Below, piece after piece: positions 8,963 to 41,900 of a stretch of 64,000 nt of DNA. The first letter of the stretch is position 1. Each line of letters opens with the position of its first letter. The DNA is from Gigantopelta aegis. Taxonomy: Eukaryota; Mollusca; Gastropoda; Neomphalida; Peltospiridae. The stretch covers positions 30,010,023 through 30,074,022 of the forward strand of contig NC_054704.1 in NCBI RefSeq assembly GCF_016097555.1, in the 5' to 3' direction. The position numbers were made by a program, and so were the translations under genes. The notes beneath the pieces are model-generated. The model had not been told where the DNA came from, searched no databases, and was given only the letters and a program-made list of their open reading frames with translations.

Positions 8963-8967
8963 CAAAT

Positions 8968-12780: not shown

Positions 12781-12801
12781 TTCTTTGAAAGGATCCCTGA
12801 A

Positions 12802-13727: not shown

Positions 13728-14016
13728 TCATGATATGTTAGGATATCAAATAGTCATAGTTTAAAATGTGTTGAGGTGTCATTGAACAAACATTCCTTTC
13801 CTTTCCTTTATAGCAAATGAAATTAAATTTTAACATACTTTTAAACAGGGCGAGTGGACGGATGGAAACTGTGACCGATCAGCATATGGTTACCAATACT
13901 ACCAAATGTAATGCATGGAAAGGACAACAGACTAACAATCAAGTTTGATTAAACATTAAAACAAATAATTCTGGCACCTATATTTTTTCAATTAAACATT
14001 AACCAAAATAATTATA

Positions 14017-14622
14017 TGAGCTCTGTGGTCTAGTGGATAAGCTGCTGGATAATCAAGCTGACGACAGTGATTCAAATCCCGTCAAAGCTGGCTCACACAT
14101 TAATTCACCTTTCTCATCTATCACCCTCTGCCGATCATTCTCATTATCTTAAAATAAAACACTTTCCAATTTCTCCCACTATTTCAATCGGTTTCGACCC
14201 TTGCTGTCAGTTTCCTCCAACTTTGTCTTCTGAGCTGTCCACACCATCGCCTACCTATCTCAACTTCCTCCACGGGTGTAGTCTCTGTGTCCCTGCACCC
14301 ACCTGGCATCCTCGTCCTCTGCCACTAATAAAACTGGTCTGACCCACGACACTAACTAACGACCGCCTAGTGCATAGTAAGTGCCTCTTGACACTCCCCG
14401 AAGTGGTCAGACTAAGCCCACAGCTAAAAGCTGATGTGGAATGGCAGGTGTGTGGCACAGATAGCCACAAGAGGCAAGCACCTGTCGCGGTTGGAAGGAA
14501 TGGGATGTGGAGGTGGGCTGTGAAAGAAGTTGAAAGTTAGGAGTTGCCTGATCGGGAAGAAATGAGATGGAATTCAAAGGAGAGAAAGAGAAGGGGGCAG
14601 TTGGATTAAGACAATAATAATA
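14017..14622 (+). mobile_element. tRNA-derived SINE, ~600 bp
   Basis: The head (14020-14100) looks like a tRNA: A box TGGTCTAGTGG, B box GATTCAAATCC, and a partial acceptor stem. The body is unrelated to the other SINEs here; the tail is (AAT)n. AATAATTCTGGCACC occurs on both sides (13964 and 14624), a probable target duplication, although ~30 nt separate the left copy from the head. Short body reading frames are not genes. Confidence 0.65.
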
Positions 14623-14853: not shown

Positions 14854-14964
14854 TCATCTGAAGGATTCTGGGAAGCTGTCAAGACTTTCCTGCCGCACAG
14901 AGGCCAGGTTTCCATTTTTCTCCGTGTTGCTAATTCCTAACATGTTTCTAGGTTCCTCCAGAAG
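14854..14964 (-). CDS. RICTOR: RICTOR exon 35, terminal (aa 1660-1695)
   Basis: LLEEPRNMLGISNTEKNGN ends ...SFPESFR then TGA. This tail is as variable in humans. Acceptor TTTGCAG. A possible ATTAAA polyadenylation signal lies at 14765-14770 (minus strand), about 85 nt past the stop. Confidence 0.85.
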   Translation of the reverse strand, partial: LLEEPRNMLGISNTEKNGNLASVRQESLDSFPESFR

Positions 14965-17900
14965 CTGCAAATATATAAATTATAAAATTATTTAAAATAA
15001 CCTAAAATGAGCAAAACTGTGAATGAACAGTGAAAAAAAACAAAACTAGGTTCCACAAATGTCAAGATAAACTAACTTTTCTCCATAACGAAATAAAAAA
15101 TCAAAACTATTTTAGATGATTGGATAATTCAAAGACAAATATGTCTGAATTAGCAATGAATAATAAAAAGAAAAGGTATTTGATCACATGGCTGAAGGCA
15201 ACATCCAAAAAACATAGCATACATGTGGAAATATTAATATCTTTGACTGGCTGTTTTTGAACTTCATTTGAATCCATTATATGGACGAGAAACTGTCCTA
15301 CTGTTTGAGGTTTAGGACAGGTGTCCTAAAACATTGATTTCAGCTATGTTTACTACAATAGTGCTGATAAACTTACAAACTACATATAACTACAATATAT
15401 AAAAGCCACCCAATTGACATTATAAACATAAAGTCTTTAAACACAGGCAGACTGAAATGCAGACATCTAAATTCAGAATGCAGAAAGCATTGACCTTTTC
15501 TTTCTTCATCAATACTTAATCTGACCCCTCAGCTGAGTACACGTCTCCTCTAAACCGAAAATGCACTATTGGATTTCTATACAAAGTGCCTTTATTGAAT
15601 GCAACTTAAAACCCTTTGAAACTACTTGTCTGTCTTGAATACATAGCCAGGTATATCATTCTCACCAGAGTCAGAACTGAACTTAAAACCCTTTGAAAGT
15701 ATTTATCTGTCTTGAATACATAGTCAGGCGTAATATTCCTACCAGAGTAATATCGAACTCGTCAAACAGTTCTTGAATAAAGCGCCTGGCCAGCAGACGG
15801 AAGGAATAGTTTGCCAACAGGTCACTGACATCCGAATAGAAACACAGATCTTGGAATGCCTTTGGAAACTTCTGCTTTAATCTAAAACACAAGAAAATAC
15901 AACTAAATATATTTGATATACAATTTATATTTTATAATATTTTATATGCACTTTCCTGGAGAAAGAAAAGCATGTTATTTAGAAGACTTTGGAAGATGCC
16001 ATACATCATTTCAGAGATTGTCGGGTCTTTGTGAAAGCAACTGCAGCTATGTGATAAGGTTTATTGTCATTTCCAATAAATTGTTTACTTAGTGAACAGA
16101 TGTTATATTAGTTTGTTTTGTTTAACGACACCACTAGAGTACATTGATATAGTAATCATCGACTATTGGATGTCAAACATTTTGTAATTTTAACATATAG
16201 TCTTAGAGAGGAAACCTGCTACATTTTTCCATTAATAGCAATGGATCTTTTATATGCACCATCTCATAGACAGGATAACACATACCAATGCCTTTGATAT
16301 ACCGTCGTGGTGCACTGGCTGGAACGAGAAATAGCCCAATGGGCCCACCGACGGGGTTGGATCATAAACTGACCGCTCATCAAGTGAGCGCTTTACCACT
16401 GGGCTATGTCCCCACACACTGGATGTAGTAATTACTCACTGGTATAGGATACAATAAAAAATACCAAATGTAACACTGTGATTTTGTACAAAAATATGGG
16501 ATGCTAATAAAAACTTTTTTTTTTTTTAATCTCTGAAATGTCATGTGATCCCTCCCAATTTTTTGCAGGTAAAATAAATATTAGATATTTAATTTTTTTA
16601 TATGTGTACTGACTTGGTGGATCCACTGATCATATCAGTTTTTTTATAAAATTGGAACATTAGTAGTAATGAAAAATTATTTATTCTAGTGGAACCTAAA
16701 AATACTTATGCAGGTTGTCTTGCATTACACCAGTGACTTCTGTGTCAAAGTCTGAGCTGTAGTACAGTCCTACCTGATGACTGAAAACCGATCGTAATAC
16801 TGTACTAACGTGAGTAGAACCTGGTCCAATCCCTTGAGTCCTATTGAACTACAGAGACTGATGATGAGACGGAGAATTTCCTTCATAATACTGACTCTAC
16901 AAACCGATGTAATATGTAGACGGAGTAAAGCCTGCTTCCCTTGAGTCCATAACTACTGACTCTGACAAGACGGAGAATTTCCTTCATAATACTGACTCTA
17001 CAAACCAATCGTAATACTGTACTAACGCGAGTAAAGCCTGCTCCGATCCCTTGAGTCCTACTGAACTACAGAGACTGATGACGAGACGGAGAATTTCCTT
17101 CATAATACTGACTCTACAAACCGATCTTAATACTGTACTAATGTGAGTAAAGCCTGCTCCGATCCCTTGAGTCCTACTGAACTACAGAGACTGATAACGA
17201 GACGGAGAATTTCCTTCATAATACTGACTCTACAAACCGATCGTAATACTGTACTAACGTGAGTAAAGCCTGCTCCGATCCCTTGAGTCCTACTGAGCTA
17301 CACAGACTGATGATGAGACGGAGGATTTCCTTCCGCACGAGAGTCCGGCCTTCGGGGGTGTCTTCACTCAGCTTCTTGGGCGCTGCAAGCAAAATGGCTA
17401 ATATATTAGGCTGCATTCGAGTGTGCTCGTAATTACCATTCTGACAACTACCAAATTGAAAATAGCAACCGAAATCTTCCAAAGCTGATATTTTCCACTT
17501 GTAAACTCAGAAGAAAAAAGGCTAACCGAGTGACCTTCACCTTTTGAATTTAAAGAAAAATAGTGACAAAATGTCTGTCTGAACTCGGTTTTGATGATAA
17601 GAAATAAAGCATGCACCGGAACTCTTTCACCACTAGGTTTTACAGCCTTGACCTTCCCTGCACACTGAGTTTAAATAGCAGATTTATGATCATGTTTGTT
17701 AAAGGATAAAACTACTTGTTTTATCATTAATTTTAGTTATAGGCTATACATTTCCAGAAAGGTGAATGGACAGCTGTCTAGATAAAAAAATAATACTTTA
17801 AAACTGTTAGATTCAACAGGTATAAATCTGGTAATTACAGGTAAATTATGCATATGACTCACCTATTTGAGTAGGTAGGACTGGTAATTTAAAAAAAACC

Positions 17901-20900
17901 CAGTACAAATGTTTTTCTTGTGGGATAATTAATTAATTAACATTCCAGTTATAATTTTAAAAATATATTTACAATGCTTTTGCAAAATTAACAAGCCATA
18001 ATAAGCTTTCATTTCATCAACAGAAACATCATACCACACACCTTTGTTGTTAGCAGGATCTGTATCACGCTTTTTTTTGGCATTCATGTTGGTAAATTAC
18101 ACAATTATAATATAAAATAGCGAAAAGTACTTTATGGCGTTTGTGTTGATGTCAAACACTTTTACGGGCCCCGGATTTTTAGTAAACGTTGATCTGCAGG
18201 TAACCGAATATGGCTCATATGTCCAGGTAAACTCAGGCGCGTGGTAAAACAGTGGCAAGTCATCTTGTAACTCGTCATCGGTATCATTTTCTTCTAAATT
18301 GCCATGTTGAATGACATTTCGTTCACGATCGCCAATCTTGATTAAATCAAATGCACCAAAGTCCATATTATCCCACATTTCATCATCGGAAAACCCGTCA
18401 TCTGAATTGCAACCATTGTTTTCAACAGACAAAATTTCGTCACCTGGTTCATGTTTAATTACAGTCAGAATATCAGTATAAACTTGGAAAAACTCATTCA
18501 AAATTCGCTAGAACATGGGCGCAGCCATTACAGTGTGTCACATGGCAGCTTTGGTCGCGCGAGATTTTGTGTAATTATAATATTGACGCGTCACTCGGCA
18601 CCAAATATGAACAGGTGTTACAAGCCGCTAAACCGGCCTGTCGTGCTGAGAGGCACTGGATATCGCTAGCCGGTATACCGGCCTGTCGTGGTGAAAGAGT
18701 TAATTGTGCAACTGAAGATGATTGATCGGTGCAAAACTGGTGGGAGACTATTTTAATACTTTTTCACCCTATTTCAAGTGAGAGATGACGTAATTTATAA
18801 TTTATGAAAATTTCACACATTTAAGTCAATAAACTAGAAAAATATTATAAATATTAATAGGTGTATCAGAATAATTTTAAAAAGTAATATTATATTTCAA
18901 GCATCTGAGTATTGATTATCTGCATAAACCATTTATCGGTCAAGCAAAAATAAATTCGGGTAACCCATTTTCTTTTTGCATAACCCGTTATGTCCCTGTA
19001 AATAATGTCCTAAATTTAATGTGTGAACGGAAAAAAAGTTATTTGCTGTAGCAACTTAATATATATGTAGTCCAGTTTAGAAAATGGTTCCTCATAAAAA
19101 AAATACTTTCCGATATGCTTTTTAAAATCTTTCTTTGATGATTACACGTAGGTTGACCTCTGTAGTATTTAAATAACCCACTGGTTTGAAGTAACTTGTT
19201 ATATGTAGCACTAACTGATAACAACTGTGTAAGTGGTATGGTGCCACTTGTGTAATAGCAATTTCGTGGTCGACTTATGTTAATATTTTACAATGTCAGT
19301 CGGGAGCACTCCCTAAAATTAGTAGTCACATGACCCTCTCGACAGTGTTGTATTTTTCACAGAATATATTCTGACATAGAAATTGTATTGAACTGCATGG
19401 AGTAATTAATGGTGGTGTGTAACCTTATACTAAATTAGATTTGCGTGAATGACACGCGAAGGAAACAATTGTTCTCGCAATTTTCTGAGGCCTATTATTT
19501 TTACATGTGTCTGAACTCATTTCACTGGTTCAACTTACCTATGTCTGAACTCATTTCATTGGTTCAACTTACCTGTGTCTGAACTTGTTTCACTGGTTCC
19601 ACTTCCCGGGGTTTCTGACGAGACTATGATACTTTCTCCGCGAGGTCGACTCGTCTTGATACCTTGAAGAGAGCCCCCTAACTGGCCCGTCCCTCCATCC
19701 GAATCACAGTCAATCGGAGGAATGTCTGAAACAAAGAGTCTTCCTTAATACTGAGTACATTCTGACCAATCTTCAAAGGAATGAATGAGCGAACGAAAGA
19801 TCAAATGAACAAATGAATATTTAAGGACATTCCAGCATGAATGACATGAATGAGATAATCAGCTACTGGGTGTCAAACAAATGTAAATGAATGGTGAAAA
19901 TTACACATCAATATAAGAATTAACATACTTAAATTAATACAAAATTAATAGAGCTGGCCCAATTCCCTAAAAAAACTACAATAAAAAAAACCTACCGTAA
20001 TAAAAAAAACAAACAAAAAAACTCAAAAACAACAACAAAAAACCCCAACTAAATTAATAAATAAATAAATAAATAAAAAGAAGAGGTAACTGTTGTAAAA
20101 AAATTCTAATAAAGTAATGCATTATCCATTTATTTTCAACAACCAAGCGACTGCACCCCATCCAACTCCACCTATTTCAGAGTATCTCCAGGCACAATCT
20201 GTCCCCCTAACCTCCCCCTCACCAGCCAAGCCATTTCTGTTAGTCATCCTACCGTTGTAATCCCGAATATAATCTTCCTCATGGTCAGATTTCTGAGACT
20301 GCCGGTTGCGTCTGCACACCAAACAAATATCTGCCTGGTGCTCAAACAGAGAATCATATTTCAGTGGTGGGACGTTCACCGACAACGAACCCTTTCTCAC
20401 TGAAAATTAAATACATAACAGTAAATTAAAACACAAAAAGCCTAAAAACACAATTTCAGTTTATTTTTAACCAGGAGTTTCTTTCCTTCTCTTACAATAT
20501 TAAATATTAATAATGAAAAATGATATGCCTACTGACCAATTGACTCGGCCAGGTGTAACAAGTATGTAGTGTACATCAAAAACAGGCTTTGTAAATTCAG
20601 CCTGCAATGATAAAGTTGTCAGTCCTTACCAAGATAAAAACAAACAAATCAGTTTTACCTAGAAAGTGATGATTCATTATGCCAAACAAATTATTTTCTG
20701 ACTGACGAAGATGGTTTGCTACTGAAAGCCTATTGCTAATTTGAGTGTATTAATAAAATGTGCTGTTCTCTAGTAAAGCCTGCCAATGAAATCACTCACC
20801 AGAAAGCTAGTTGCTGATTTGTATGTATTCATGAAATGTGCTGTGAAATCACTCACCAGAAAGCCTGTTGCTGATTTGTATGTATTCATGAAATGTGCTG

Positions 20901-23900
20901 TGAACTCACTCACCAGAAACCCTTCTGCTGATTTGTGTATATTCATGAAATGTGCTGTGAAATCACTCACCAGAAAGCCTGCTGCTGATTTGTGTGTATT
21001 CATGAAATGTGCTGTGAAATCACTCACCAGAAAGCCTGTTGCTGATTTTTGTGTATTCATCTTTTGCTGAAACTGATGATCTCTGATCTTCACCTTCAAT
21101 GACCTAAAACACAATTTTGCTGTGTAAAATAGCACATGTGCTTTTCAATTTACATTTAAAATTTTGAACAAACATCTCTAAAGTTTAAAAGATTTTATTT
21201 ACAGTTATGTTTAAATTATCTAGGACACCCTAGGTAATACTGACCATCCTTTAATAGGCCAACCATGGGGTGGTAGTTGGAACAGAACATTACTAAGAGT
21301 TGATGGTTCCACTGTGAGGAATCGATTCTTCAACCTATCTCAGGCAAGTGCTCAACTACCGATCTATACCCTATTCCTATAAACAGTGCTCAAAATAGTT
21401 AAAAAGAAAAGCTTTTGACAAAATTTAGGAGAGAAATAATTTTAAGACTTTTCCAGACTTTTAAAAGTTCCATACTGGTAAGAACTGAAAGATAGAGCAC
21501 TCACTTGAAGTGCTGCGAGTTGAAGTATAAATCCCATTACTGGTTAAGCAAAAGCTATGGTATGTGCTGTTTTTGCTTGTCGTCAAGTACATACAACTGA
21601 TTGCTTGCTGCTAACAGGCAAGAGCAGGATTTTTCTTACAACTCTTATTTTCTGGATGAAGTCATTTGTCACTATTATCATACGTCAGACACCTAATAAC
21701 TGTTTTTTAAATATGTTCTGTGGTTTTGTCAACATTATTTAAATTTTCTTGCTTCCAAATCAGTTTCACAACATGTTCAATACTTCCATTACAATACATG
21801 ATTGATTTTTTGGCTGAACTACCTTACTCAAAGGAATGTCATTCTCCAGTAATCCATGTTATATCCATCTTTAAGAACAGCCATAATTAGAAAGATGGAT
21901 CATGTTATTCAACTCATCTCAAGTTGGGATTTTCCTACCTATAGTCCTTCCCAGCTTCCATGAACATTGGGTTTTTTTGGTAAATAATTTCAGTTTGATT
22001 TGACTAAGAAGAAAAGTTAAAGTGGTTTGGAAAAAAAAAAAAAAAACCCACTATTTTTTGTACGTAATTTAGAAAATAATCCACTCAGAAATTAGTAACT
22101 TTGTCAGGTGTGGATACCGAATTTTTCTGTGTGTGTGTGTGTGTTTCGTATGCAGCTAATTAAATGAAAAATATTTAAGGATGCCTATTCATTCATTAAT
22201 ATTAGTGGAAAATAAAATTGTCAACGGGGGGGGGGGGAGGAGGGGAGGGGGAGGGAGGGGGGGGGGAGAAAGGGAGAGATCTCCTCAAACCTCTTCTGGA
22301 TCTGCGCCTGCTTGTAATAAACACCAAAGTAAGAAAACTACGTTCCGTGATGGGACAGGACTGGTATAAAATTTCTGTTTTGTATTTACCTCGAATATCA
22401 TGTGAATGTCGACAGGGAGTGTGAGACCTATGAATCGGTTAGTGGGTTTGTTCGCCTTGATGGCCGACTTGTTTAACGTGTTGAACGGACTCGTTTGCTG
22501 AACTTCACAGTCCACGAGAGACGCACAGCTCATGTTGCTTCGTATTGTGCTGGAAAATCAGAGAAAATAATCATCAGGCATGTGACTGAAACATTTCTAA
22601 AAAAGCTGAAAATTATACATGCATGCCGAAGGCACGTAATTGAGTGTAGAATGCAAGGAAAATGAATGAAATGAAAACTTTTTAAAAAGCAGAATTCCAC
22701 CAATTAGCGGAAGAATCACATGCCTGAATCATCCATACATTTTACTGAATACTGTGTCCAAAGTATATATCCCCAAAATAATCACACCCAAATTAAGTGC
22801 AAACATGCCGACTTCAAAACATTTGACCTCAAAACCACGGGATTAGATAAAAAATAACTTGAAATTTATTTCTGAATATCTACAACTCTTCATCAGCTGT
22901 AAATAACATTTCTGAATTAAAAAAGACCTGGCTGCGCTCAGAACAGACAAATAACATGTTGCACCCAAATTATAGGCCCTCAGATTTCATGGAAGTTATC
23001 GTTTCGGGTACGGTGTCGGTAAAATCACAGAACCAAAATTTTGTTTCCCATGATTATTATATTTAGTACAACTATTCAACAAAAATAATATATATATAAT
23101 TATTTTTTAAAACCAGTTTCCAATGGGTTCCCATGATCACAAGACATGCATCGAAAAAGTGTTTGCCATGAAATTAGAAATCCTATGGCCTGAAATTAGT
23201 GCTACTTAAAGCCCTGATTGTCAACCTATGTTACACTAGTTAATGAAAATGGAAATATTTTATTTAATGACGCACTCAACACATCTTATTTATGGTTATA
23301 TGGCGTCGGACATATGGCTAAGGACTATACAGATATTGAGAGGAAACCCACTGTCACCACATCATGGGTTACTCTTTTCGATTAACAGCAAGGGATCTGT
23401 TATATGCATCATCCCATCAACATAACACATACCACGGCCTTTGATATACCAGTCGTGGTGCACTGGCTGGAGTGAGAAACAGCACAATGGGCCCACTGAC
23501 AGGGATCGATCCCAGACCGACCGTGCATCAAGCGATCTCTTTACCACTGGGCTACGTCCTGCCCCACTAGTTAAAGGCCTTACCTCAGATACATGTTGTC
23601 TACGCTGCTATCCGACTCTGTACTGCACGTTCTCGTAATCAGCGGCTCCACAAACAGGGAGACCGAAGCGTCACCTTCCCCCTCTGAACTGTACGTCCTC
23701 TGTCGCTTAATTATCCGGAGTGTCGCGTAACCGAGAGCATCACGGTAACTTGTGTACGCAGAAACTGTTTCCACGCTGCGGCTGATCCCGAGAGACGACG
23801 CGGCTGATCGCCTCCGCAGACTAGGGACGCGCGTCAAGTTAACGAGTCGTCGGTTGACAGTCGAAGGGTGGACCTTGTCGGTCGTGTCAAGCTGTACGGA

Positions 23901-26900
23901 TGCCGGTATAGTATTGAGAGATGACGCGCTCGCGATTGGACTCAGAGGTGAAACCGTCAATGTGGGCATGAGGCCAGAGTCGCAAGAACTTATACCACTT
24001 GTTGTGGAGTCCGTGTTGAAACTGCTAGTCCGACTTTTACTTTTATGTGAACTATCACTGCTGCTGCGGTCCTCTCTCACGACCGAACTGCCACCAAGTT
24101 TGAAAGAAAACTTCTCCTGCCCTTTATTGTCGCCGTCTGGCGACATACTTCCGACAGTGAAGGTAAACTTGTTTTCTTTTTGATTATTTGAAGGTGACAT
24201 TTCGCCCTCAGATCCTTGTGACTGATGAACAAACGCGGCACTTTTGTCGATTATCACAGAGGTTATCACAGAGGTTGCCACTGGTGTCGTTTTTGTACTT
24301 TTATCCATTTCAGACACTATAGTATTCACTGTCTGTGTGTGCGTTTCTGGTTGCAATTTAACATTGAGTTTTTCTGAATTAGACTTCACCGACACATTGT
24401 GAAACTGGTGAAATTCGACCGTGTCCGATTGCAACGTCCTGTCACTGGGCATATCCTTCACAGAATGCTGCAACAAGACTGGCACTTTGTCATTCACTAG
24501 AATGGGAATGTTTAATGACTTCATCGAATGAATGTTGGTTTTATCACAGGAACAGTTTTGATCAGAGTTATCCCCCTTCTCTTCCTCTTCAATGAAAGAC
24601 AACTGTGTGCTTCCCATGACCATCACTTTGTCCCCATCTCCTTTGAAAGCACTATGAAAACTAGAACAACTGTCACCTAGGTACCCGCGATACTGAAAGG
24701 GAAAGCAGCCCCCCTCATCCATGACTGGCCACAGATCCTCTCTTGTACGGCACATCGACTCCCAACCATACCTGGCAAGAATTTCTGTCCCTTTTCTAGT
24801 CGAAGCTAGAAGTCCCAACACATAGAAGGCTGTGCTGTAAAACAAGACAATTATAATGACAACATGCCTAATGTGCATTCTGTAAAGAAAATATTATCAA
24901 TAAGAAATGCATACTGGTTTTACAATAGATCACAAGAATACTTCAGAATTAAATTAAATGTCCTGCCTATCATAAACTGATTCTGTGGATAAAGAAATAA
25001 TTTGTGATGTAACATTCAGAATTAATCTACTCTTTTGAAGAAAAAATTCAACAATAATAATTTTAAAAATTCAACAAATAAAATAAAAAAAAAGCATTTA
25101 ACAACAAATGATGTACCTGAGGGTGGTATAGCCCTAATCCACATAGATACATAATGAATAATTCCTTTTCTCCCATCCATTCAGTGAAAATAAACAATGT
25201 TGTACAAATGTCCAAAATGATTTTTTTTTTTTTAATTTTATTATGCAGTGAAATAAATATCACCATTAGAAAAACATATCTAAAAACTGTTGATACTAAA
25301 AGTATAAACTGAAAACAACAATTCTGCTGAATTAAATGTCTCGCCTACCATAAATGTTTTCGGTGCACTGTGATGAACATCGATAGGTGCAACTATAAAC
25401 CAAGTTTCACCGACATAGGACTAATAGTTTGTGAGAAACAGATCTAAACAGGAAGCTTTAACTCTAAAGTTGACACCTTCACTGCCACTGCTGTTGGAAA
25501 AGTAACACCTATATCTCACCATTTAACTTTGTAAAGGAAGAACAAAAACAATATACTGTTCCATCAGATTGTGTATTCTTGTTATTGTGAGAGAATTTTT
25601 GTCTTTTCCCATGCCAAGAATTGTCTGGACATACCAGACAGATTTATTTCATCTGGAGTGCTGTCATAAAACAAATATCTTGCATAGCTATAAATGGAGG
25701 AAAAAAGATCTGGGCCTGTGCTTATAAAACTTTTAGAGTCCAGACTCAATCTCAAATGACGTCACATGTATACAATTTGTATAGCGTTGTCATGACATTA
25801 GTATCTCAGACTTATTTAGAGTCTTGAGTCTAGACTCTAAAACGTTCTGTAAGCACCGGGCCTTGAAGGTTTACAGGGTCTTTCAAAGTAGGTGGTTACT
25901 GTGAGATCAAAGATAAAAATGGAAACAGTTTTCAGATGACAAAACAAATCTGAAAATTCCATGGTTTTTTATATCCCATAGTGTATGCATATTTACAGCA
26001 TGATTTATTCTGAATCGTACATATAATGAAGGCAGTTACCCTCTGATTGAGAACACTCCACATTCCTCAGCCAATCGGATAAATTCCGGTATCAATCTTT
26101 CTTTGTCCAAATAGGTCACTCCTTCCACAGAGATTCCTAAATGACCCTGAATAATACAACATAATACAAAGTTAAAATATCAACACAACGAGCAGATTCT
26201 CAAGCAACAGAAATGTATTGAAAAAGAGCAAACAGCTAAGGGATGATCATGTCATCATTGTTAAGAAACTTGTTTAATTTGTCTAGAGGTTTGAATACCT
26301 GGTACGAAAGACTCATGTATTTATTGCAACTTTGTACTATAGTATTGTCGGAAATAGAATAAAAATGATTTTCGTTGATTATTTCTTACATATTAAACTG
26401 ACTAGTAAATATTTTGTAAATATCTATTTAATGATACTCTACCTAATTTAGCATTTACTTGTTTGGGCGCTCATTGATGTACAAGGTGGTGTTTACTTTT
26501 GAAATTAAAAGAAAAATGTCAGTAAACAGGTGATTTGTGCACTTTATTGGAACAGACTATAACAAATTTTGGTCAACGTGTCAATTTCATTGCTGTTACA
26601 ATAGGTGAGGGACTGTTTCTGATGACGGTTTGGGGGCGAGACGTAGCCCAGTGGTAAAGTGCTCACTTGATGTGTGGTCGGTTTGGGATCAATCCCTGTC
26701 AGCGGGCCCATTGGGCTATTGCTCGCTCCAGCCAGTGCACCACGACTGGTACATCAAAGGCCATGGCATGTGCTATCCTGTCTATGGGATGATGCATATA
26801 AAAGATCCCTTGCTGCCAATCGAAAAGAGTAGCCCCTGAAGTGGCGACAGCGGGTTTCCTCCTTCAATATCTGTGTGGTCCGTAACCATATGTCTGACGC

Positions 26901-29900
26901 CATATAACCGTAAATAAAATGTGTTGAGTGCGTCGTTAAATAAAACATTTCCTTCCTTCCTTCCTGATGATGGTTTGCCCCTATCCCTCTCCAAAACAAA
27001 ATATTTGTAGTCATTTATAAGTAACTTTTGAGCAAAACTGTCAAGAGCCATTATGAGTGATCCATTATACCGGTATTAAAGGTGCTATCTCAATGTTACA
27101 CAATGACAGCTATTGCAAATCAATTTTTTTTTTTTTTTAAATTTTGATTTAACATTTAAAGAAGACACCTTTAACAATATGCCCATAAATGATTATAGGA
27201 AATAATTTTATCTACTGGCAGAAAATACATTTTTATTGGAGAATCTTTATCACAGCTCGCATTATATAGCACCTTTAAATTGTTGCAAGGTTGTGTAAAT
27301 TTCTAATGTACTTATATTGAATTTATATTCAATAAATATGCTTGTCATAATTAATAATTTATGCTGGAATTCAAAATAATCAGTCAACTTGCAGTTTTAA
27401 ATTAAAAGTTTGTTTAAGGGTAAATGAAATTGACACATATCGATCAAAATGTGTTATAATCTGTTCCAATAAAGGTGACATATTTAGTTTAATTTCAAGA
27501 GTAAACACTACCTTGTACATCAATGAGAGCCTAAACAAGTAAATGCTAAATTAGGTAAAGTCTCATTGAATGGGTATTTACAAAATATTTACTTGTTAGT
27601 TTAATATAAAAGAAATAATCGACGAAAATCATTTTCATTCTATTTCCGACAGTACTTTAGGAGGCATAAATCTCAAAAGGATATAGTTTTTTCTTTCGTT
27701 TTGTTTACAGAGTATACATTTTTGTTTTACTCCCTCATTTTTTGCTATGCTATTAAATTAAGGGTTTTTTTATAATTGTAAAAATAATATCTAAAACTGC
27801 TGTTTCACAATTAATACTTTTTGGAATTCGTGAAATAATTTTATTACAATTCACAGAATAAAAACGATACATTTTTGTCATATTTCAGAACTTTGGTATC
27901 CCCTGTTGCCTTTTTGTCACTCCTTCAGAGGATTCTGCCTACAGATGGATGGGCCGTAGTCTGAATTCTTGAAACAACATGGGGTCGCTACAATTTCCTA
28001 TTTACTTCAACCATATTATAATTTGAAATAAATAATGTCATTTATGCTTACCAGAGCCCACAAGGCAGTTTTCAACTTAAGAATATGATCATCTGACAGT
28101 AATTCCAAACTCCGAACATACTGATTATACTGATGGACACATTCCTGAAAATAAAGTATAATTATAAATTATTCGTTTTATTTGCAAGCACAGTGTTAAC
28201 CGAATAGCATGGATTTTTATATAAAAATATAGCACCAACAGGTTGTTAAAAATAGTATCAAGTCCAGACTAGCGAATTTTAAGAATAAAAGGCAAGTATT
28301 GGTATCTTTTATTTAAATTAAATATTAAAAAATGACAACACTGCTATATCAAAAAGCCTATTATTTTCTTACCTCTTTCTTGAGCATGTCAAAACCGTCT
28401 TCATGCATCGTTAGTTGACCATAAAGATGCATTGGAAGAAACACATCTTTCTGTGGATGTCTGCAAACAAAACAGATACTTTAACAATGAAGTCAATATT
28501 AAGCTTATCTCAAGATTAAAACAAACGCAAAAATGTCAACAACAAAAAACAAGACAAAACACAAACCCACTCACTCCATCTCCGCAAAACCAAAAACAAC
28601 AAAAACCTTTGTGATAGCAGTTATTGTTTGATAAATAGAACTATTTAATTTTTGTATTGAAATAAACTTCTGTAATAAAATTGCTTCGCCTAAACAGGCT
28701 TACTTGAACTACAGAATTTATTTCTGCATTCAAATTATTAATCCAACCAGAGGGGACTATAGGTTTCATCTCCGTCCTTCTGTTTGTCTCTCAACATCCA
28801 TCTGTCACACATATAGTCTTCCGGATGTCGTTTTTTTCACAATGCTTTGAGATATTGAGCTGAAATTTTGTATATAGCTTTATTTGGTATTGTTACAGAT
28901 CTAGTTTGACTTTCATGGTGATTTACCCATTTTTGTCAAGAGTTATGGGCCTTGAACTTAGGAAATACGAAAATTTGTTTTTCAGATTTTAATTTTTTTT
29001 GCAATGCCTCAAGATATTGTGTTGAAATTTTGTGCATAGCTTTATCATGTTCTATTACAAATCAAGTTTGACCTTCATGGAAGATACGAATATGTGTTGG
29101 GCTCTGTAGGGGTCATGTATTGCTTTAGCAGTATATCACAATGCGTGTTTCTCTACTGAACTTTGTGCTGTTCTGAATTTACTGAACTTACTTTTGTATT
29201 GATCGTCTTGTGAATGAACCCTCGTACGTCTTCTCATACGTGGTCAGCGCTTCATTCAGCATTTCCTCCACTATCTGAACATATCTGGTGTTGAAGCCCT
29301 GAAGAAAATAACACAATAAAGAAATACAAAATAAACTTGAACAAAGGAGACAGTTCATAGATAAAAATTACACGGACAAAAAATTCTGAAAACGTTTCAT
29401 CAAAGAATAAAGACAATAACGTTTTTTTGTTGGTGCTGAAATCAGAATTGTTTTTTTAATTGTACAGATTTCCATCTCTGACAAGTTAAAAAAAAGAGAA
29501 AAGGAAATTCTCAATTTTATATGAAATAACAACAAATTTCCAAAAACATATCTTTAAAGTAAACACCTTATTAAAAAAATGGCAGGATATTTAGTTTTAC
29601 TCATATGATGTTAGATGCTTAAAGGGACACGCCCTAGTTACGGCTAGTTGTTAACCATTACGGCGTTGTTTTTCGCTATTAAACCCATTTTTTCACAAAT
29701 AAAATTGCACTTTACTTACATTTTATTATTTAGAATACACATTTCCATTCACCTGAAGTGCTTTTTGGTAATCCTGGTAATCCTGATGTTTGTAAAACCA
29801 CGAAATGCATTTTTTGTATTTCTTAAAATGCTGTGTGCACTCGAGAAAAAACCGTTAAGCAAGCGAGGTCCAATCTATTTTTAGAGGGAACCTTCCTGTG

Positions 29901-32900
29901 TAAACGTCACAGACGTTGGTATACCACGTGACCGTTATCATTTTGGTCCGGTTTGTTTTCTCGTGCACGGTTTGCGCAATCAACATCCGATTTGTAAGTG
30001 TCTCAATACAAAACGTTACAAACCCTTAAAACCAATAATTTTGCTAAGTCTTACGATATCTGGAGAGGGGATACAACCAGGACAGAACAGTTGGAACATG
30101 TCCAGGAGAGGTGAAAGGAACGTAGGTATTGTTGTGCTTCGAGCGACATCTACCGGTGACATCAGAATACTAACTTTCAAAATTATTTCAAGCAATTGGG
30201 ACATGGGGATTCCCATGGTATTTATCGATATAAAACCTGCTTTTTCACTCCATTTGATAAAAACGTGATCTAAGTGTGTTACAGGTTTGTAGATTAACCA
30301 AATTATAATTTATTTTCGCTGGATGGAACTAGGGTGTGCGGCTTTAACAATAACTAAAAATATTATGCTAATAAAGTAACTATTGATAACTCAAAATTGC
30401 TTGAATTTCTGGGACTGGAAATAAACATTGTGTATTTCATGAATTCCGTGACCCCCCAAAAAAAGGAAAAAAAAGAAGAAAAAAAAAGAAAAAACCCCCA
30501 GAAAAAAACAGAGAAAAAAAAGAGAGAGAAGGAAAAAAAAAAAAGAGTCAAAACCTTGTTCCATTTCTGCAGCTCATGCATCACAAAGTTGGAGTCCATG
30601 AGAGACTTGAACCCTTTAGGAACAGACAAGAACCGACACAACATCATCACACCCTGGTCACCGAGATGTAGCAGTGAAGGCCTTAACTTGATCAAGGATT
30701 CTAGGTTTTCCTGAAAACAGTTAAAAAAACCCCCAAATTAAATGTAAAAATTATTAACATTCAAGATACTGCAAGTAAGATATCTTACTGACGTCATCAA
30801 AGTTAACATGCTGTATTCCACGTACAGTGCATTCTCTCATTAATATTTTCTGCCATTTTGCATACCCCAATAGAGAACAAAACAATTAACAGAACCACAG
30901 GAAGTTACAATAAGAAATATCCATGAAAATTATACTTAACCATTCAGAAATGAAACATATTTTATATATAACTTTAAAATTAAAAATACATCAGCAACAG
31001 TTATAAATTTGTACCACATAAATATGGCTTGTGTCAACCATTAAAATCCATTCCAGTATATATCCTTTTTCATGTCAGTAAAACTTCATTGTAGAAACTT
31101 GATACAGTGAAACTCCTCTAAACCAGACGCCTTCGGGACCAAATAAAACATCCGGCATTAAGAGATATCCAGTTTAGAGAGGTTCTCTTCTGTACAGATA
31201 TATAAAAGGGGGCTGCCAAAAATGTCTGGTTTTAAGGGAATTCCGGTTTACAGAGGGTCTGGTTTTGAGAGGTTTCACTGTATGATAAAAATAATAAAAT
31301 AGGCCTCACGTTTATTTCTGAAGCCTCGTCCAGGATATTCAACGCTACTCCGGCCACTATCTGACTGGGGTCATACAGCTGGGTCACCAGGAACTCGATA
31401 CCCCATGACGAGAAGGACGCAATACCCGTACGAAGCAGCACTCTCAGGAATCTGGTACAATATATTCTACCAGTCTGCAGTAAAGAAACCAAAACCATTC
31501 TGTGAAGCTTAGCAAGTAGTTTGCCATGAGAAGGACGCAATACCCGTACGAAGCAGCACTCTCAGGAATCTGGTACAATATATTCTACCAGTCTGCAGTA
31601 AAGAAACCAAAACCATTCTGTGAAGCTTAGCAAGTAGTTTGCCATGAGAAGGACGCAATACCCGTACAAAGCAGCACTCTCAGGAATCTGGTACAATATA
31701 TTCTACCAGTCTGCAGTAAAACAACCAAAACGATTTTGTGAAGCTTAGCAAGTAGTTTACCATGAGAAGAACGCAATACCCGTATGGAGCAGCACTCTCA
31801 GGAATCTGGTACAATATATTCTACCAGTCTGCAGTAAAGAAACCAAAACCATTCTGTGAAGCTTAGCAAGTAGTTTGCCATGCAGATAGCTTCTGTATTC
31901 AGAAATGTAACATAATATGATAAAATAATTACAAACAACTCTCTGCTGTTATATGATACACTTGAGTCTGATTTGTTGGCGTCACCAACAAACTGAATGT
32001 TATCCTTTGATAAAATGAAGAAACGTATGCCATTACTTAAGCATCATGAAAAGGACAAAAGCAACTGATTTGTGTGTATTTAAACAAAATAAATTTAGTT
32101 TTTTTTATAATTATAAGAATTTGTTTGCGTGTGAATTCACTGACATTTTAACAGTCACCAATTTGATATAAAATCGCGTCACTATACTAGGTTTTTATAC
32201 AACCTGTGACTGTTAAGCAAAAGTAAATTCACAAAAAAAGACAGACAAATAATTCTTATTTAATATAGCATGTTATTGAATGCACATACTTTGCCGTAGG
32301 AATATACTTTAAAATTCTGAATAAATATGATACTCAGTCATAAAAATATATTTTAATTCCAAACAAATCTATTTTGTCATACATATCAGGGCACAATACT
32401 ATTATATTCTATAATTAAAAGCTCCAAACTTGAGTATCGTTGGAATTACATGTGTAGTATATCAGTAATCAATTTTAAAAAATACTACCTATTTGAAAAA
32501 TCAGTTTGTTTAAAATAAATTTGAAATACCAATGTGGTACTAAACCACAGTACAATAGATTTATGTTTAATAGGTAACTCAGTGGTTATGCAAATATAAT
32601 TAATGTAACAATCTGTTATCTAAATATAAATCATGTGAACCGAATTCTGGTTACCAAAGATTTTCATATATTGTTTCTTCCACATGAAATAATTTAATTT
32701 TAAAAAAAAATTACACTTTGTTATAAAGACTATATTTTAATTTTGAATTCTAAAAAATCTAGCTAAATGATATTTTGTCATAATATAGAGTAACTGTTAA
32801 GTGTGCACATAATAGGTTAAACTGCCATTCACCAATTTGCCAAATAAAAATCATATTGAATTTGGTGCATTATTGTCAAGTTGATAATGCACCAAATTCA

Positions 32901-35900
32901 ATATGATTCTTATTTGGCAAATTGGTGAATGACGTTTAACCTATTATATGCAGACTTAACAGTTAATGTATATTATGACAAAATGACAAAATATCATTTA
33001 GCTAGATTTTTTAGAATTCAAAATTAAAATACAGTCTTTGTAACAAAATGTAATTATCAACTTGACAATAATGCACACTAAAAATCATATCTAATCTCTT
33101 GAAATATTTGCTTCGGTTTTAATTTTGGTGGCTAAGCTTGTTTTTGTCACCAATAAAGAGGTTATAAATGATTATAATGTGATTATTGAAATAACTCACC
33201 TCAGAGGAAGCAGTGAGAGCTTTGGACAAAATGGTGCGAGCGGATCCCTCCCTTGAATAGTTCAAACTGGCCACAGCCAACTTGATGTAAATGTCTTGAG
33301 TGTTCGGACCAATCAGATCCAAAAGGCTAAAACAAAACAATTAACACAAGATACTTAGACAGTTTGCATGCAGTTTTATCTTTCTTTCTTGTTGTTGGGT
33401 TTTTTTTTTACTGCAGTTTTAACACAGGATAAAAAATAATAAGTAAAACCACATTTAATGCAATTTATGCACAATTTATGGATACATTTTTAGCTAAAAC
33501 CCCCATCTCTGTTGCTAGTTTTACATTACTAAGAAACATATGATTCCTACATTTTGTATGGTATCACCTGACCTGACAAAACATTCTAGGTAGTGGTTGT
33601 CTGGTTGGGCATTGGTGGAAGTGTACTAAGAATGAAAGGTCAGGTTACAGTATGAAATTTTTGCTCCTTCATTTTGCTACAGAACTGCATGTATATCTAG
33701 GTTGTTATAGAAGATGCCATTTTAACAAGCTCGACTTGCTCTCCAATCGAGATGAAATGGTCAAGTAGGCAAACTATTTTTAAATACTCCAGAGGACATA
33801 ACTTGGTAATGTCAATGGCCCCTGAGATAATTGCCATACCCTCTAGGTAATGTATAAACAATACTGGACTTATCTGGACATATCTATAAATAATATAAAT
33901 TATTATTAAATATTAAAATCATTTCCATGAATCATTTACATACTTAACAAATACAAAGGTACAACAATTGCCCTATTTGAAAAGTGTGGGATAAGGATGT
34001 TGAAGTTTGTTTTGTTCAACAATACCACTAGAGCACATTTGAAATATTAATCATTGGCTATTGGATGTCAGACATTTACATATAGTCTTGAGAGAGAAAA
34101 CTGGTACATTTTCCCCATTAGTAGCAAGGGATCTTTTTCATGCAACATCCCACAGACAGGATAGCACATACCACGGCCACCGACAAGACTGATCCTAGAC
34201 CGACCACCCCAATGGAATAAGGAATCTTACTTTTGAAAGATGCCTGTGTTTTCCAAGAAGCGATCACCTCGTGGCGTGAGTGAGAAGCGACCGATGAAGA
34301 GGAAGTAGAACTGGCTGAGAGAATGGTGCATACTGTTCATACCGAATATCGACTCGGGAGCCACTCTGTGGGCGCTCAGCTGCAACGGAGAGTAGGAGAA
34401 ACAAGCATGTTACTAAGGAAATGACCCTAATCATCTACTTCTTTAACTGTCAATCTCATATTTTTGTATTTATGGTGCTTTCATTAACTAAAAGAAAGCA
34501 AAACTTTTTCTTATACCTTTGATCCTTTTTACACACATTTAAAAACAAAAAAAATCATACAAAGACCAAATTAACATCAACAGCATCAACCAGTTTCAAA
34601 ATGTATCGGTATGTTTTTGGTTTATTACATGAAACATCAATTTACCTTGTCATAAATACATTAAATAATTCATATTTTATTCCATTTTAAAACAATTTAG
34701 TTAAACATACTATAGGTTCCTATTAAAAGAGTTAAATATCAAATACAGTGTTCTACTGAAATCCTAATTAGAACAGATGGTTACCTCGTATAAGCACTGT
34801 GCAATATCTGTAAGCCATTCTGTTACGTGTTTTTGTGCCTCATCCTGTAAGTCAAGATAAATAAAACAATATAATTACAATCCTTTATTAATAATAATAA
34901 TAATAATAATAATAACAATAATGATAATAATAATAATATACCAGTAATAATAAAGAAAGAAATGTTTTATTTAACGACGCACTCAACACATTTTATTTAC
35001 GGTTATATGGCGTCAGACATATGGTTAAGGACCACACAGATTTGGAGAGGAAACCCGCTGTCGCCACATAGGCTACTCTTTTATGACAGGCAGCAAGGGA
35101 TCTTTTATTTGTGCTTCCCACAGGCAGGATAACACAAACCATGGCCTTTGTTGAACCAGTTATGGATCACTGGTCGGTGCAAGTGGTTTACACCTACCCA
35201 TTGAGCCTTGCTCATTCACTCACTCAGGGTTTGGAGTCGGTATCTGAATTAAAAATCCCATGCCTCGACTGGGATCCGAACCCAGTACCTACCAGCCTGT
35301 AGACTGATGGCCTGCCACGACGCCACCGAGGCCAGTCCCAGTAATATAATAACAACTATTCTGTGAGAAAAATTTCAGTTCAATATCTTAAGGCATTGCA
35401 AAATTAAAGGGCCCTGGAAAACAGCTTTTTTTTTATCTCCTAAGTTCAAGGGCCATAATTTTGTCCAAAATGGGTAAATTGGCATGAAAGTCAAACTTGA
35501 TCTGTAACAGTACATGATAAAGCTGTACATAAAATTTCATTGCGAAAAACCCCATCTGGAAAACTATATGTCGGACAGTCAGACGAACAGGCAGACAGAC
35601 AGAGATAAAACCTATAGCCCCTCCGGTTGGACCTGGAGTGGACTAATAATAATGATAATAAAATAATAATTAAAGTAATACTACTACTACTACTACTACA
35701 GTGATCTCCAAAATGTTAAGTACAAACAATTTTGGCATCGGCTAAAATCTCTAACTGTAAAAGAAAGAGTACCTGATGTGACTTGATAAGGAAGTCTATC
35801 AGATGACAGCCTACTTTGCAGAAGAGTCTTGAATTATCACATTTGAGGTCCATACGAGAGAATTGGTCATTCGTTGGTTTGAAGAAATAAATAACTTTTT

Positions 35901-38900
35901 TCACCAGTCTGAAATGACAAGACATGAATAATTGTTTTCAGCAGCATTTAAAAAACAAAAAAATTAAAAATCAAATTATACAGGGATCATGCTAGGGGTG
36001 ATTTCGATGCCAATGAACTTCGTCTTATTTTAATTGCAATGGCGAAATCCACTTAATTTTGACTTCTTGAAATCAGATTGCAACCACGACTATGCAAAAT
36101 TATCTAATGTCTAAGATCCAATAGCTGTATCTTTATAAAATGATACAGTGAAGCCTCCCAAAAGTGGACGCTGTGTAAACCGGAATTTCATCAAAACCAG
36201 ACTTTTTCAATGGTTCCTTTTTAAACATCAGTACGAAACAGAACCTATCTAAACCAGATGCCTCCAAAATCCAAACTTTTTACTTGGCCCTATGAGTGTC
36301 CGGTTTAGAGGAATTTCTGTATAAAGGAAGGAAGAAAGGACATGTTTTATTTAACGATGCACTCAACACATTTTATTTATGGTTACACTGTATAAAGATG
36401 CTCAGAAATAATGTTGGTCTGGTATTCTATAAATAAAACAAACATTTTGAGAGTACTGCTAAAGCAATACATGTCCCCTACCAGGCCCATCAATTTTTCA
36501 TATCTCCTAAATTCAAGGGCCATAACAGAAAAGTGGGTAAATCACCACTAAACTTCAACTTGATCTGTAAAGCTATATACAAATGATAAAGCTATATAAA
36601 AAAAATTATTGTGATATATCCTGGCATTGCAAAAATCTGGAATTTGTTTTTCACATCTTCTAAGATCAAGGGCCATAAGTCCATTAAAAATGAGTAAATC
36701 GTTATGAAAGTCAAACATGATCTGTAACAGTACGTGATAAACCTATACACAAAATTTCAGCTCAATATCTAAAGGTCTTCTGAAAAAAGATTCTGGAAAA
36801 GAAATTTTGACATCTCCTAAGTTCAAGGGCCATAAGTCCGTTAAAAATGAGTAAATCGTTATGAAAGTCAAACATGATCTGTAACAGTTTGTGATAAACC
36901 TATACACAAAATTTCAATATCTAAAGGTCTTCTGAGAACAAATTCCGGGAAAACACATTTTCACATCTTCTAAGTTCAAGGGCCATAACGCCATCAAAAA
37001 TGGGTAAATCGTCATGAAAGTCAAACGTTATCTGTAATAATACATGATGAAACTATATACAAAACTTCAGCTCAGTATCTCAAAGCCTTCTGTTAAAAAC
37101 ATCCGGAAAACATATGTGGGACAGATGGACGGAAGGACAGATAGACAGACGGATGGACGGATGGAGCTGTAGGGGACTAATAACAGCATTTATTATTGTG
37201 AACTGGTCTAACTTGAAATACAATTTTAAAAATGATTTTAACCTCACTGAAAAAGAAAGGTCTGAGTCATAATAAACTATTCAAGTCATAATACAAACCT
37301 GATTACATTCTGGTCATCAAGTCTTCGTAATTTATCATCTGGCCACTGAAAACATTTAAATGTTGAATTTTAGCTATGTTTAATAGTTACATTTCTTTTA
37401 TACCAAGTCATATTATATTCACGTATATCCTTTTGCACTTATAGTATTATAATTAAATTTTCTTTGTGTCTCTACACTTTATGGCAATCTGACTGGTCCA
37501 GAGGTGCTTACTTTTTTTTTTCATATCTCGATGCCTACTACCACCCTCCAACTGACTCGCACTACTTTTGTGCAACCATATTTAGATATTTTTAAGAAAA
37601 CACACAGAGTCATACAGTATGCACATCATTTTTTTCAGTTCATACTTGCATGCACCAAAAAATAATTGCGGTCAATTTTTAAATATTTCCACAAAATAAT
37701 GTAAGAAAATGTCAGTCTTTAAACACAGGTAAATATTTTTAAACTATTTGCTCAAAGATGCTACAGATGATTTTGGAATTAACCTCTTTTTTTTATAAAT
37801 TTAAATCCATGAGAATTATGAAGGCCATCAAGTGGAAATTAAAAACCTGTGAGTGAAAGAAAGAAATGTTTTATTTAATGACGCACTCAACACATTTTAT
37901 TTACAGTTATAAGGCGTCCAACATATGGTTAAGGACCACACAGATATTCATGGGCTACTTTTCGATTAGCAGCAAGGGATCTTTTATATGCACCATCCCA
38001 CACAGGGTAGTACATACCACGGCCTTTGATATACCAGTCGTGCTGCACTGGCTGGAACAGAAATAGCCCAATGGGTCCACCGATGGGGATCGATCCCAGA
38101 CCGACCGTGCATCGAGCAAGTGTTTTACCACTGGGCTACATCCCGACCCTACTTGTGAGTGAAATGCAGTAAAATGCATGCAAAACATGAATGGTGATGT
38201 GTAACCTGTACTGAATCTAGGACATCCAATCCTCACCTTCAACAAAGAACTAATGAGATTCCAGTCCCAACACTTCCAATCTCTGTTTCCAAGAATCTGA
38301 GTGTCACGCACCACTTGAGACACGAGGTCATCAGCCAGGGCCTAAAAGTAAATAAACCAAATAGTACGACATGTTATAAACCTGGTTTATTACCCTCTCA
38401 AAATATGCAGTTTTGGGATCGGACAAGCCAAAGCCTACAATAAGGCCTCTTGCAAAATTTTACAACAAAACAGTTACACAGTCAACATGTTTTAAATATA
38501 GAAGCTTGGTCAGAAGACAGACAGGCAGTAGCAGGATGGGAATAGCAATATACTGCAAATCCTTGAGCAGAAACCAAGAGGGCTGTAAAGAAAAAATAAG
38601 TGTATTGCCCAATAGTAAATGAAAAATATCCTTTACTTTCAACTTATTTTCATGCTTATATCCAATTAAGGTTCAAGCACGCTGTCCTGGGCACACATCT
38701 CAGCTATCTGGGCTGTTTGTCCATGACAGTGAGTTTGGGGTTAGTTTGTTAGTGAGAAAAAAAAGAGGGTGTAGTGGTTTTACACCTACCCTACTGAGTT
38801 GATAAAAAAACTCGCTCTGGGTGGGAGCCGGTACCGGGCTGCAAACCCTGTACCTACCAGCCTTATGTCTGATGGCTTTACCACGATGCCACCAAGGTCG

Positions 38901-41900
38901 GTAAATCAAAATACCTTTGTGAAGTACAGCTCTGACAAGCTGTCTCGTTTCAAGTGCCAGTGTCTGCCTACGAATTCAATGAATTTCCCAGCATGCTGCA
39001 GAAGCTGATCGAGAAAGAGACTGTGTGGAACCGGTCCGCGTTTCTTCAGTGAATGTAAATGAGTCAGGTTGGTCACAGCCACACTGGCCTGGCTTTAATA
39101 AAGAAAGAAAACAAACTTTTATCAATACGAGTGCTAAAGTGAAATATTTTTCCATACAAATCAGAGTTCACACTGGAAATGGGCCCTTAATAGGATTATC
39201 AATATGATGTTTTTTAAACAAGAAATCTGTACCATATTCAAATTTAGATAGCTAAACACAATAAAATAAAGGCTCTTTTGACAATTGTATTTATTACATT
39301 TTCTTAATTAGCATTTTGGTAATTTAATAATGAAATATATTTGCGTAACATTAACAGGGAACAATATTTTAAAATCTTAAGACAGCCTGAAGTTGGTTCA
39401 GCTGATAGTGTAAGGTTATCTAAAATAAACTTTAAAATACTGGGGTTTTTTTTTTACTGCAAATCACTGAAGAACAGTTTCTTTAAAGGGACAGACTCTA
39501 GTTTCTAAACACCAAGTCTTTATGTTTCACAATTACAGCCGTTTATGATCACTGAAATCAAACATTACTTATATTTTATTCTTTACATTATCCATTTTCG
39601 TACATCCGAAGTGTTTCTGGTCATCCTGGTGTTTCTAATACCACAAAATGTATTTTTCACATTTTCGAAAACGCACATGCGTTCGAGAAATAGCGGTTAA
39701 GGAGTTGCGTTTTAGTTAATTTTTACGGGTATTTCAATGTCACAGACTCTTTTTTTACTCTATTGTATCCATATTTGTTACAGGTTTGTAAATTAATCAA
39801 ACTTAGGGTCCATTTTTACGGGTTGAAACTAGGGTCTAGATGAAAAAAATATGTTTAAATTCTAGGTTCTCTCCCTTTAATACTTGGTAAAGTGACTTTC
39901 AGAACATGATGTCTAAAGCTTTTCAATTAAACATGATATTAAAACAAGCATAGTATCCTCATATTTTATATTTACCAAATTGTTTGTAATTAACAGTGTG
40001 GATATTAAAGACATGCTGATTGCATATCAGTAATGCTTACTGTCGCTTTGCAAGAGGAATTTCAAAGGAGGAAGCCATGGTTATCAAACTTGGTAAACAA
40101 TGACTATGGCTGCTGGTTTCTGGAGGGAGTAGTTTGTAGGCCTGGAAAAAACAAGACACCCATATAATATATCAAATATTGTTTAACAAGATTAGGAATC
40201 AGTCAAATAATAAATATATTTATATGTAACACATCAAATATATTGTTTGACAATTAGGAATCAGTCAAATAATAAATATATGTACAAGTAACATATCAAA
40301 TATATTGTTTAACAAGATTAGGAATCAGTCAAATAATAAATATATGTACAAGTAACATATCAAATATATTGTTTAACAAGATTAGGAATCAGACAAATAA
40401 TAAAATATATGTAGAGCCAAAAAATCAACAATGGCACAAATCTGTGAAACTGTGTTCCGTTCCATATTATTTTAACATGCTCATATACCACAGAGGTTTC
40501 GAGCATGTCTGCCCCGGGATTCGACCTCTGAGAGGCCAGGGGCCCAACCCGGGGCAGATGAATCTGTGTAAATTCTTTTTGTGTCAAAATTAAATGAAAG
40601 GGGTATTTGTTTAACACGGCCATTGATCTTCACGACATCAAAGCAGTACTGTAACAGTAACAAAATTGATCCGTAATTTTTTTTTATCATTATCAAGAAT
40701 TAAGTATTATTATTTGTAATAAATTGTTGTCTCAAGATGACCCGAATTTTGAGAGCTGTTACCGACACCTCAGCACATTTCAACTCCTTAAAGCACTGAC
40801 CATAGTTATTACAGTCAACTGTTTTCAGCTATTACAGCTTTTTCATAATATAAAATGGCTGTTTCAGTTATTTTTTCTGTTTTCTCTGAAAAATCAATTA
40901 CAATATTTAGTGGCAAAGGGGGAAATTTAAAAACATTTTTTTTTTTTTTTAGACAGGCACTATCAAGCTTTTACCTACCAAATGCAGCAATTCACCCAAC
41001 AATATCACAGCTCTGGTAAACAGGGCTCCTTCGCTGCTTATCACAACTTCAATCAATGCCTGACAAAAAAAACAAACATAAAAAAAAACAATAAGGCTCA
41101 TCCTGTGCTTGAATTGTTATTATGAAAACATTTAACATGATAAAAAGTTTCGTATTTCTCCTGCCTCATCTATTCTAGTCTTCTTTCATGATGCATTTTA
41201 TTTAGTACTTCCATGCACCAATCTAGCTGATCCTGGTAAAACAGGCCTACCCCATGGTACCAGATAATATACATGCAAAACTTAGTCAAGTAGTTACAGA
41301 TGCATAGAAAATCCCAAACATTTGACCAAGCTGAAGCATTTCTACAACATGTGTAGAATGAACATTTGTTTATATTTATTTTCGTTCTTATATCCAATTA
41401 AGGTTCAAGCATGCTGTCCTGGGCAACCACCTCAGCTATCTGGGCTGTTTGTCTAGGACAGTAGGTCAGTGGTTAGTTAGAGAGAAGTTGGTGTAGTGGT
41501 CTTACCCATCGAGTTGTTAACTCAAGCCGGTACAGGGATGCGAACCCAGTATCTACCAGCCTTAAGTCTGGTGGCGTAACCACTACACCACTGAGGCTAG
41601 TTAACACAAATATTCACAATGCACCTTTAATAGCTGGAGCTGGACAGCAAGGAGCTGACAAAGAAAGAAAGAAAGAAATGTTTTATTTAACGATGCACTC
41701 AACACATTTTATTTACGGTTATATGGCGTCAGACATATGGTTAAGGACCACACAGATTTTGAGAGGAAACCTGCTGTCACCACTTCATGGGCTACTCTTG
41801 AGCTGACAAATAAGGAGTGCTATCACAGGGAGAAAAAAGCAAGGACATTTTAGGACTGAAAGGTTAGGGAACACATAAAATAAGGAAATAGGCACAGACA

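Follow-up and report, generated by a model that had tools for sequence, protein, structure and literature searches.

Tandem repeats that span exon-intron borders have been described in amphioxus under the name of mirages (PMC3087553). According to the available part of that report, mirage units measure 10-160 bp (Adh3 and the globins), both types of border are affected, and many, but not all, of the copies carry an AG or GT; the arrays show length instability, reverse transcription PCR suggests undisturbed splicing, and mirages are proposed as a route to new introns (PMC3087553). In the accessible portion of another report, PGBD5 was added as a mirage case, and troponin C is cited (PMC3902484). 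For human segmental duplications, the excerpt available indicates that internal tandem repeats at exon-intron boundaries can yield novel introns (PMC2812944). The present analysis concerns the RICTOR orthologue of the gastropod Gigantopelta aegis, in which five exons have one border each spanned by the unit of a tandem array. The gene lies in a stretch of 64,000 nucleotides, hereafter the window (C6:30010023-30074022, in an assembly of 1.149 Gb and 5,216 contigs).

In comparison with amphioxus mirages, as far as the available part of their description goes, the RICTOR arrays present a similar unit size (34-118 bp versus 10-160 bp), a location at 5' or 3' borders, and an intact exon at one end. 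The unit spans the exon-intron border in all five arrays, many but not all outer copies carry an AG or GT, and both border types are represented, with four donors and one acceptor in RICTOR and both kinds in other sampled genes. Exclusion of the edge copy from homogenization, as in the amphioxus mirage, is consistent with what is seen at RICTOR exon 33, but not at exon 22. The differences are that another animal and another gene are concerned, and that five arrays are found here in one gene. Instability and apparently normal splicing are reported for amphioxus; in RICTOR, the inner sites by themselves give the full open frame, and the outer sites tested give early stops. The RICTOR arrays are best filed as further mirages in another animal.

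With the human boundary repeats, as presented in the part of the source available, the RICTOR arrays share the presence of minisatellites at exon-intron boundaries that are able to offer cryptic splice sites; yet in the human cases young paralogues acquire novel introns or alternative transcripts (PMC2812944), whereas the conserved RICTOR gene keeps its modeled exon structure. Border arrays in molluscs are described in none of the titles and abstract openings covered, and given that full texts were outside this coverage, no claim of a first report is made. Intron gain by tandem genomic duplication has reportedly taken place in a potato RdRp gene (PMC4974935). The RICTOR arrays likewise originate in tandem duplication inside a gene, but no new intron is evident in RICTOR, where the copies, as read from the gene model, are intronic and lie beside intact exons.

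The RICTOR gene model and its border arrays

The RICTOR orthologue is complete, with 35 coding exons on the minus strand and a coding sequence of 5,088 bp in a single open frame, which encodes 1,695 amino acids. Exons 1-28 were fixed via spliced alignment to human RICTOR and exons 29-35 were set by hand from splice motif and phase, and the model has 68 internal exon borders. A PDB comparison of the joined open frames yields human RICTOR (E-values 1.3e-114 and 1.4e-106). Judged by eye, exons 30, 31 and 35 show little likeness to human RICTOR, and their placement is based on splice motifs, with all phases fitting. The donor of exon 23, at 30555, is very weak (AAG/GTTTTG, score -3.9), and a long T-rich tract follows close after it on the gene strand.

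Tandem Repeats Finder (TRF) recovers all five arrays at the positions and with the units reported in the initial annotation of this locus. One border per array is affected: an acceptor in the case of exon 22, donors in those of exons 30, 32, 33 and 34. The gene, its arrays and the exons concerned are as follows.

14854..55978, minus strand: RICTOR orthologue (spliced alignment to human RICTOR, hand-set exons 29-35, and PDB match)
31410..31882, minus strand: array of 4.0 copies of 118 bp, spanning the exon 22 acceptor; 65 bp exonic
31310..31474, minus strand: exon 22, intact copy; acceptor 31474, outer acceptors 31592, 31710 and 31828
20787..21060, minus strand: array of 4.8 copies of 57 bp, spanning the exon 30 donor; 33 bp exonic
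21028..21103, minus strand: exon 30; donor after 21028, outer donors after 20971, 20914, 20857 and 20800
19501..19604, minus strand: array of 3.1 copies of 34 bp, spanning the exon 32 donor; 32 bp exonic
19573..19725, minus strand: exon 32; donor after 19573, outer donors after 19539 and 19505
16785..17333, minus strand: array of 4.9 copies of 116 bp, spanning the exon 33 donor; 75 bp exonic
17259..17382, minus strand: exon 33; weak donor GTTAGT after 17259, outer GT after 17027 (copy 3), 16922 (copy 4) and 16810 (copy 5)
15603..15748, minus strand: array of 1.9 copies of 77 bp, spanning the exon 34 donor; 6 bp exonic
15743..15881, minus strand: exon 34; donor after 15743 (score 2.9), outer donor after 15666 (score 5.0)

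The splice sites recur in register, with four acceptors at exon 22, five donors at exon 30, three at exon 32 and two at exon 34. At exon 33, the GT is present in four of the five copies and absent from copy 2; among its outer donors, that of copy 3 scores -3.2, and that of copy 4, which is partly deleted, has a very poor GT context and scores -11.8. The initial annotation regarded the outer copies as decoy splice sites. This stands for the 13 in-register outer sites that keep an AG or GT over the five borders (3, 4, 2, 3 and 1 in the order listed, one of them in the very poor context just mentioned), but not every outer copy makes a good decoy, copies 2 and 4 of exon 33 being examples. Its other descriptive claims agree with TRF and the 35-exon model: the five arrays, their units (118, 57, 34, 116 and 77 bp) and exon numbers are the same, four of the five lie near the 3' end of the gene (exons 30, 32, 33 and 34 of 35), and the inner copies give the right frame, as reflected in the single 5,088-bp open frame.

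The correct frame of the inner copies is nonetheless a consequence of geometry. A duplication from exon into intron leaves the whole exon followed by its own donor, with the mirror case for acceptors; hence, the inner copy is always in frame, the complete exon keeping its own site and the extra copies being intronic.

Copies within the five arrays match each other at 85-95% (TRF), and such differences among copies make a plain error of assembly less likely. Three differences separate the exon-side copy of exon 33 from its outer copies (ATC/ATT, CTG/CTC and AGC/AGT), all synonymous in the exon frame according to our reading of the alignment, where copy 4 lacks part of that region.

The transcript was rebuilt with each of 14 outer sites: three of exon 22, four of exon 30, two of exon 32, four of exon 33 (three copies plus one donor past the array) and one of exon 34. 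All 14 lead to an early stop, which for 13 of them lies 280-3,048 nt ahead of the last exon junction. With stops that far before the last junction, nonsense-mediated decay is expected as a general rule. The stop for the outer donor of exon 34 lies 17 nt before the last junction, and a different C terminus is predicted. Exon lengths are 76-165 nt with the inner sites and 133-609 nt with the outer sites, and exon definition would favor the inner ones.

Two candidate outcomes were rejected. The 57-bp array of exon 30 could have encoded in-frame repeats of 19 amino acids, and a 124-codon open frame does cross it, but the first added unit has a stop in the RICTOR frame. Use of a donor past the last exon 33 copy (after 16774, score 4.9) leads to an early stop.

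Border arrays in other genes and chance expectation

The sample consisted of CCT, adaptin, myosin and SNF-transporter exons elsewhere in the genome, taken from Pfam matches (55 of 74 for CCT, 32 of 43 for adaptin, 41 of 80 for myosin and 20 of 98 for SNF). Small contigs and most exons with inner stops were left out by choice, and units below 30 bp were excluded from the border counts. Borders were called with a simple splice-site score near match ends, using generic animal values, which yielded 249 of 296 borders: 114 of 134 in whole CCT and adaptin genes, 72 of 82 in myosin stretches, 29 of 40 in further adaptin stretches, and 34 of 40 in SNF transporters. A few of the 1-kb stretches overlap, and arrays may be clipped at stretch ends.

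Borders in an array or by it (within 2 bp in the whole genes) number 6 of 114 in the whole CCT and adaptin genes (2.99 expected), 3 of 72 in the myosin stretches (1.67 expected), none of 29 in the further adaptin stretches (0.46 expected), and 2 of 34 in the SNF transporters (1.49 expected). By inspection, the splice site itself is repeated in nine of these eleven border arrays, which defines the strict count; CCT_C7 and L057 merely abut an array and enter only the loose count. The donor called at L036 (663) is possibly copy 2, with copy 1 at 583. The strict count excluding RICTOR is thus 9/249 versus 6.61 expected from founding units (P = 0.22). RICTOR, with 5/68, does not differ significantly from this sample (Fisher P = 0.19); with the same kind of array in several unrelated genes, it does not clearly stand out.

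Individual cases illustrate this. The CCT gene at C4:19800001-19816500 (L010-L011) is a stronger case than RICTOR, since two of its exons are preceded by 10 and 11 outer acceptor-like sites, one every ~37-50 bp. The two rows lie as follows.

9489-9954 of the joined L010-L011 stretch: row of acceptor-like sites in the CCT gene
11076-11692 of the joined L010-L011 stretch: row of acceptor-like sites in the CCT gene

A myosin gene has one donor present six times, and an SNF-transporter donor has three outer copies with scores of 4.4-4.9. In a further SNF-transporter exon, on C15 (L102:1-514), a 150-bp unit comprising a large part of the exon plus the donor is present in at least 3.4 copies with 98% matches. 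Tandem arrays abound in the sampled genes, and in the CCT gene regions their units range from 17 to 359 bp; arrays with units of at least 30 bp cover 0-40% of each of the 11 CCT and adaptin gene regions sampled. The figure for the RICTOR region is 6.7%. Small contigs (e.g., C758, C950 and C1254) hold several matches to conserved proteins with in-frame stops, which could represent pseudogenes, introns read through, alternative haplotypes or DNA of foreign origin.

Within RICTOR, random placement of whole arrays puts on average 3.3 of the 12 at a border versus five observed (P = 0.20), and the same null for units of at least 30 bp gives 3.1 of 10 expected versus five observed (P = 0.15). A null based on the founding unit is fairer, because copies are added later. 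Where the border arrays cluster, toward the 3' end, minisatellites in general are locally in excess: of the 16 arrays in the window with units of at least 30 bp, 9 fall within its first 21 kb (P = 0.046). GC content was dropped as a cause of a border excess since array units are not GC-rich (mean 0.345 over 47 arrays versus a background of 0.359), while values of 0.36-0.43 in the five RICTOR arrays and 0.379 in the 80 bp around borders leave composition partly possible.

Competing explanations

The explanation we prefer, with a probability of roughly 75%, is that these are ordinary minisatellites whose founding duplication fell randomly across an exon-intron border and is near-neutral, exon definition picking the inner site. 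The process would begin in a genome dense in tandem arrays, as the sampled genes show it to be. A duplication crossing a border would, by its geometry, spare a whole exon at one end, and should be far less damaging than a duplication within an exon. Copy number may then shift by slippage or unequal exchange, with the exon-side copy presumably under coding constraint. The spliceosome would use the inner site via exon definition, so that exon length stays normal, and any use of an outer site would produce a longer exon with an early stop, probably removed for the most part by nonsense-mediated decay. Nothing specific to RICTOR has to be invoked. The initial annotation had held that random minisatellites would not give such a pattern, and had proposed a local mechanism or a tolerance for redundant splice sites. 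The tolerance appears to be supported. The local mechanism and the singularity of RICTOR are not supported, the same kind of array being present in CCT, adaptin, myosin and SNF genes on other contigs, and the objection to random minisatellites is not borne out by the independent sample (9/249 versus 6.6 expected), which does not support a gene-specific or border-seeking mechanism.

Several observations weigh against the minisatellite explanation. With the founding-unit null, RICTOR alone presents five borders versus 1.48 expected (P = 0.018), a value that is optimistic because the gene was picked for looking striking. Over RICTOR and the sample together, 14/317 borders are counted versus 8.1 expected (P = 0.037), a total that includes the prompting case, and the loose count excluding RICTOR is 11/249 versus 6.6 (P = 0.073), the two abutting arrays included. 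In addition, 47 of the 296 sampled borders remained uncalled, and one of them, in L102, is by eye a clear splice-site array; given that it holds a donor array, the true rate may be higher. The outer donor of exon 34 outscores the inner one (5.0 versus 2.9), and the nearest outer copy of exon 22 shows no difference from the exon copy in 118 bp. The latter suggests that this copy is young or recently homogenized, and indicates that exclusion of the exon copy from homogenization is not general. Whether arrays are commoner at borders than elsewhere, on which the initial annotation had staked its reading, receives a divided answer: the founding-unit null gives an excess in RICTOR taken alone, and the independent sample gives no significant one (P = 0.22).

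These counts are what a border bias would draw on, in which founding duplications arise or survive more often at exon-intron borders, for example through transcription-linked breaks or R-loops, with an approximately twofold excess. Besides the RICTOR figure and the combined total, two sampled genes have two such arrays each (CCT_C4a, and the SNF-transporter locus on C2, comprising L101 and L107). Yet the independent sample alone shows no significant excess, and whole-array placement reveals no clear excess in RICTOR (P = 0.20), so we regard such a bias as rather unlikely. It is equally doubtful that border-crossing duplications are favored, and not just tolerated, with tandem splice-site copies at ~4-7% of borders, about twice the chance rate. 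If they were, the genome would offer a natural library of genes that must pick one of many near-identical splice sites, and new exons and shifted borders would have a constant source in it. As they stand, the counts neither establish a mild bias toward borders nor speak clearly against one. Regulated unproductive splicing, in which the outer sites would be poison extensions that, in certain tissues or states, cut the output of RICTOR through nonsense-mediated decay, could account for the early stops of all 14 outer sites, 13 of them at least 280 nt before the last junction, and for the stronger outer donor of exon 34, with its predicted different C terminus and its stop 17 nt before that junction. 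However, reading into an intron gives an early stop by chance anyway, the decoys are not all preserved (the GT of exon 33 copy 2 is lost and copy 4 is partly deleted), and the same arrays are found in unrelated conserved genes, which makes this explanation very improbable. That the copies were multiplied in assembly is scarcely credible: in the exon 22 array, copies 3 and 4 are indeed identical over 118 bp, but most copies differ by substitutions and small deletions, and similar arrays are present in most of the sampled whole-gene regions.

Under the preferred explanation, that of ordinary minisatellites, the arrays are still of consequence. If a rate of ~4% of borders holds genome-wide, thousands of exons would have two to a dozen near-identical splice sites in a row, and conserved genes such as RICTOR, the CCT chaperonins and the myosins would constitute a natural experiment in the choice of the spliceosome among equal sites and in what the tolerance of decoys costs. 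In genomes of this kind, gene prediction and short-read assembly may put exon borders in the wrong place.

Other features of the window

At 60984-62214 on the plus strand, two open frames match the Pfam family SGL (SMP-30/gluconolactonase-like). This SGL gene is on the opposite strand to RICTOR, upstream of it and divergent from it. The open frame at 57691-57927, taken by eye for the first exon of the SGL gene, has no Pfam match.

Three long minisatellites lie downstream of RICTOR, at 5317-5959 (58 bp, 11 copies), 7305-7799 (31 bp, 16 copies) and 13156-13724 (31 bp, 18.5 copies). The first of these was considered as part of a downstream gene, a candidate that was rejected given that seven open frames from positions 1-14,500, not all the frames there, belong to no Pfam family at E 0.01. 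Finally, a dispersed repeat seems to occur several times, at 16100-16420, 23240-23600, 26544-27014 and elsewhere, where similar spurious open frames are seen by eye; from a motif, we take it to resemble a short interspersed nuclear element.

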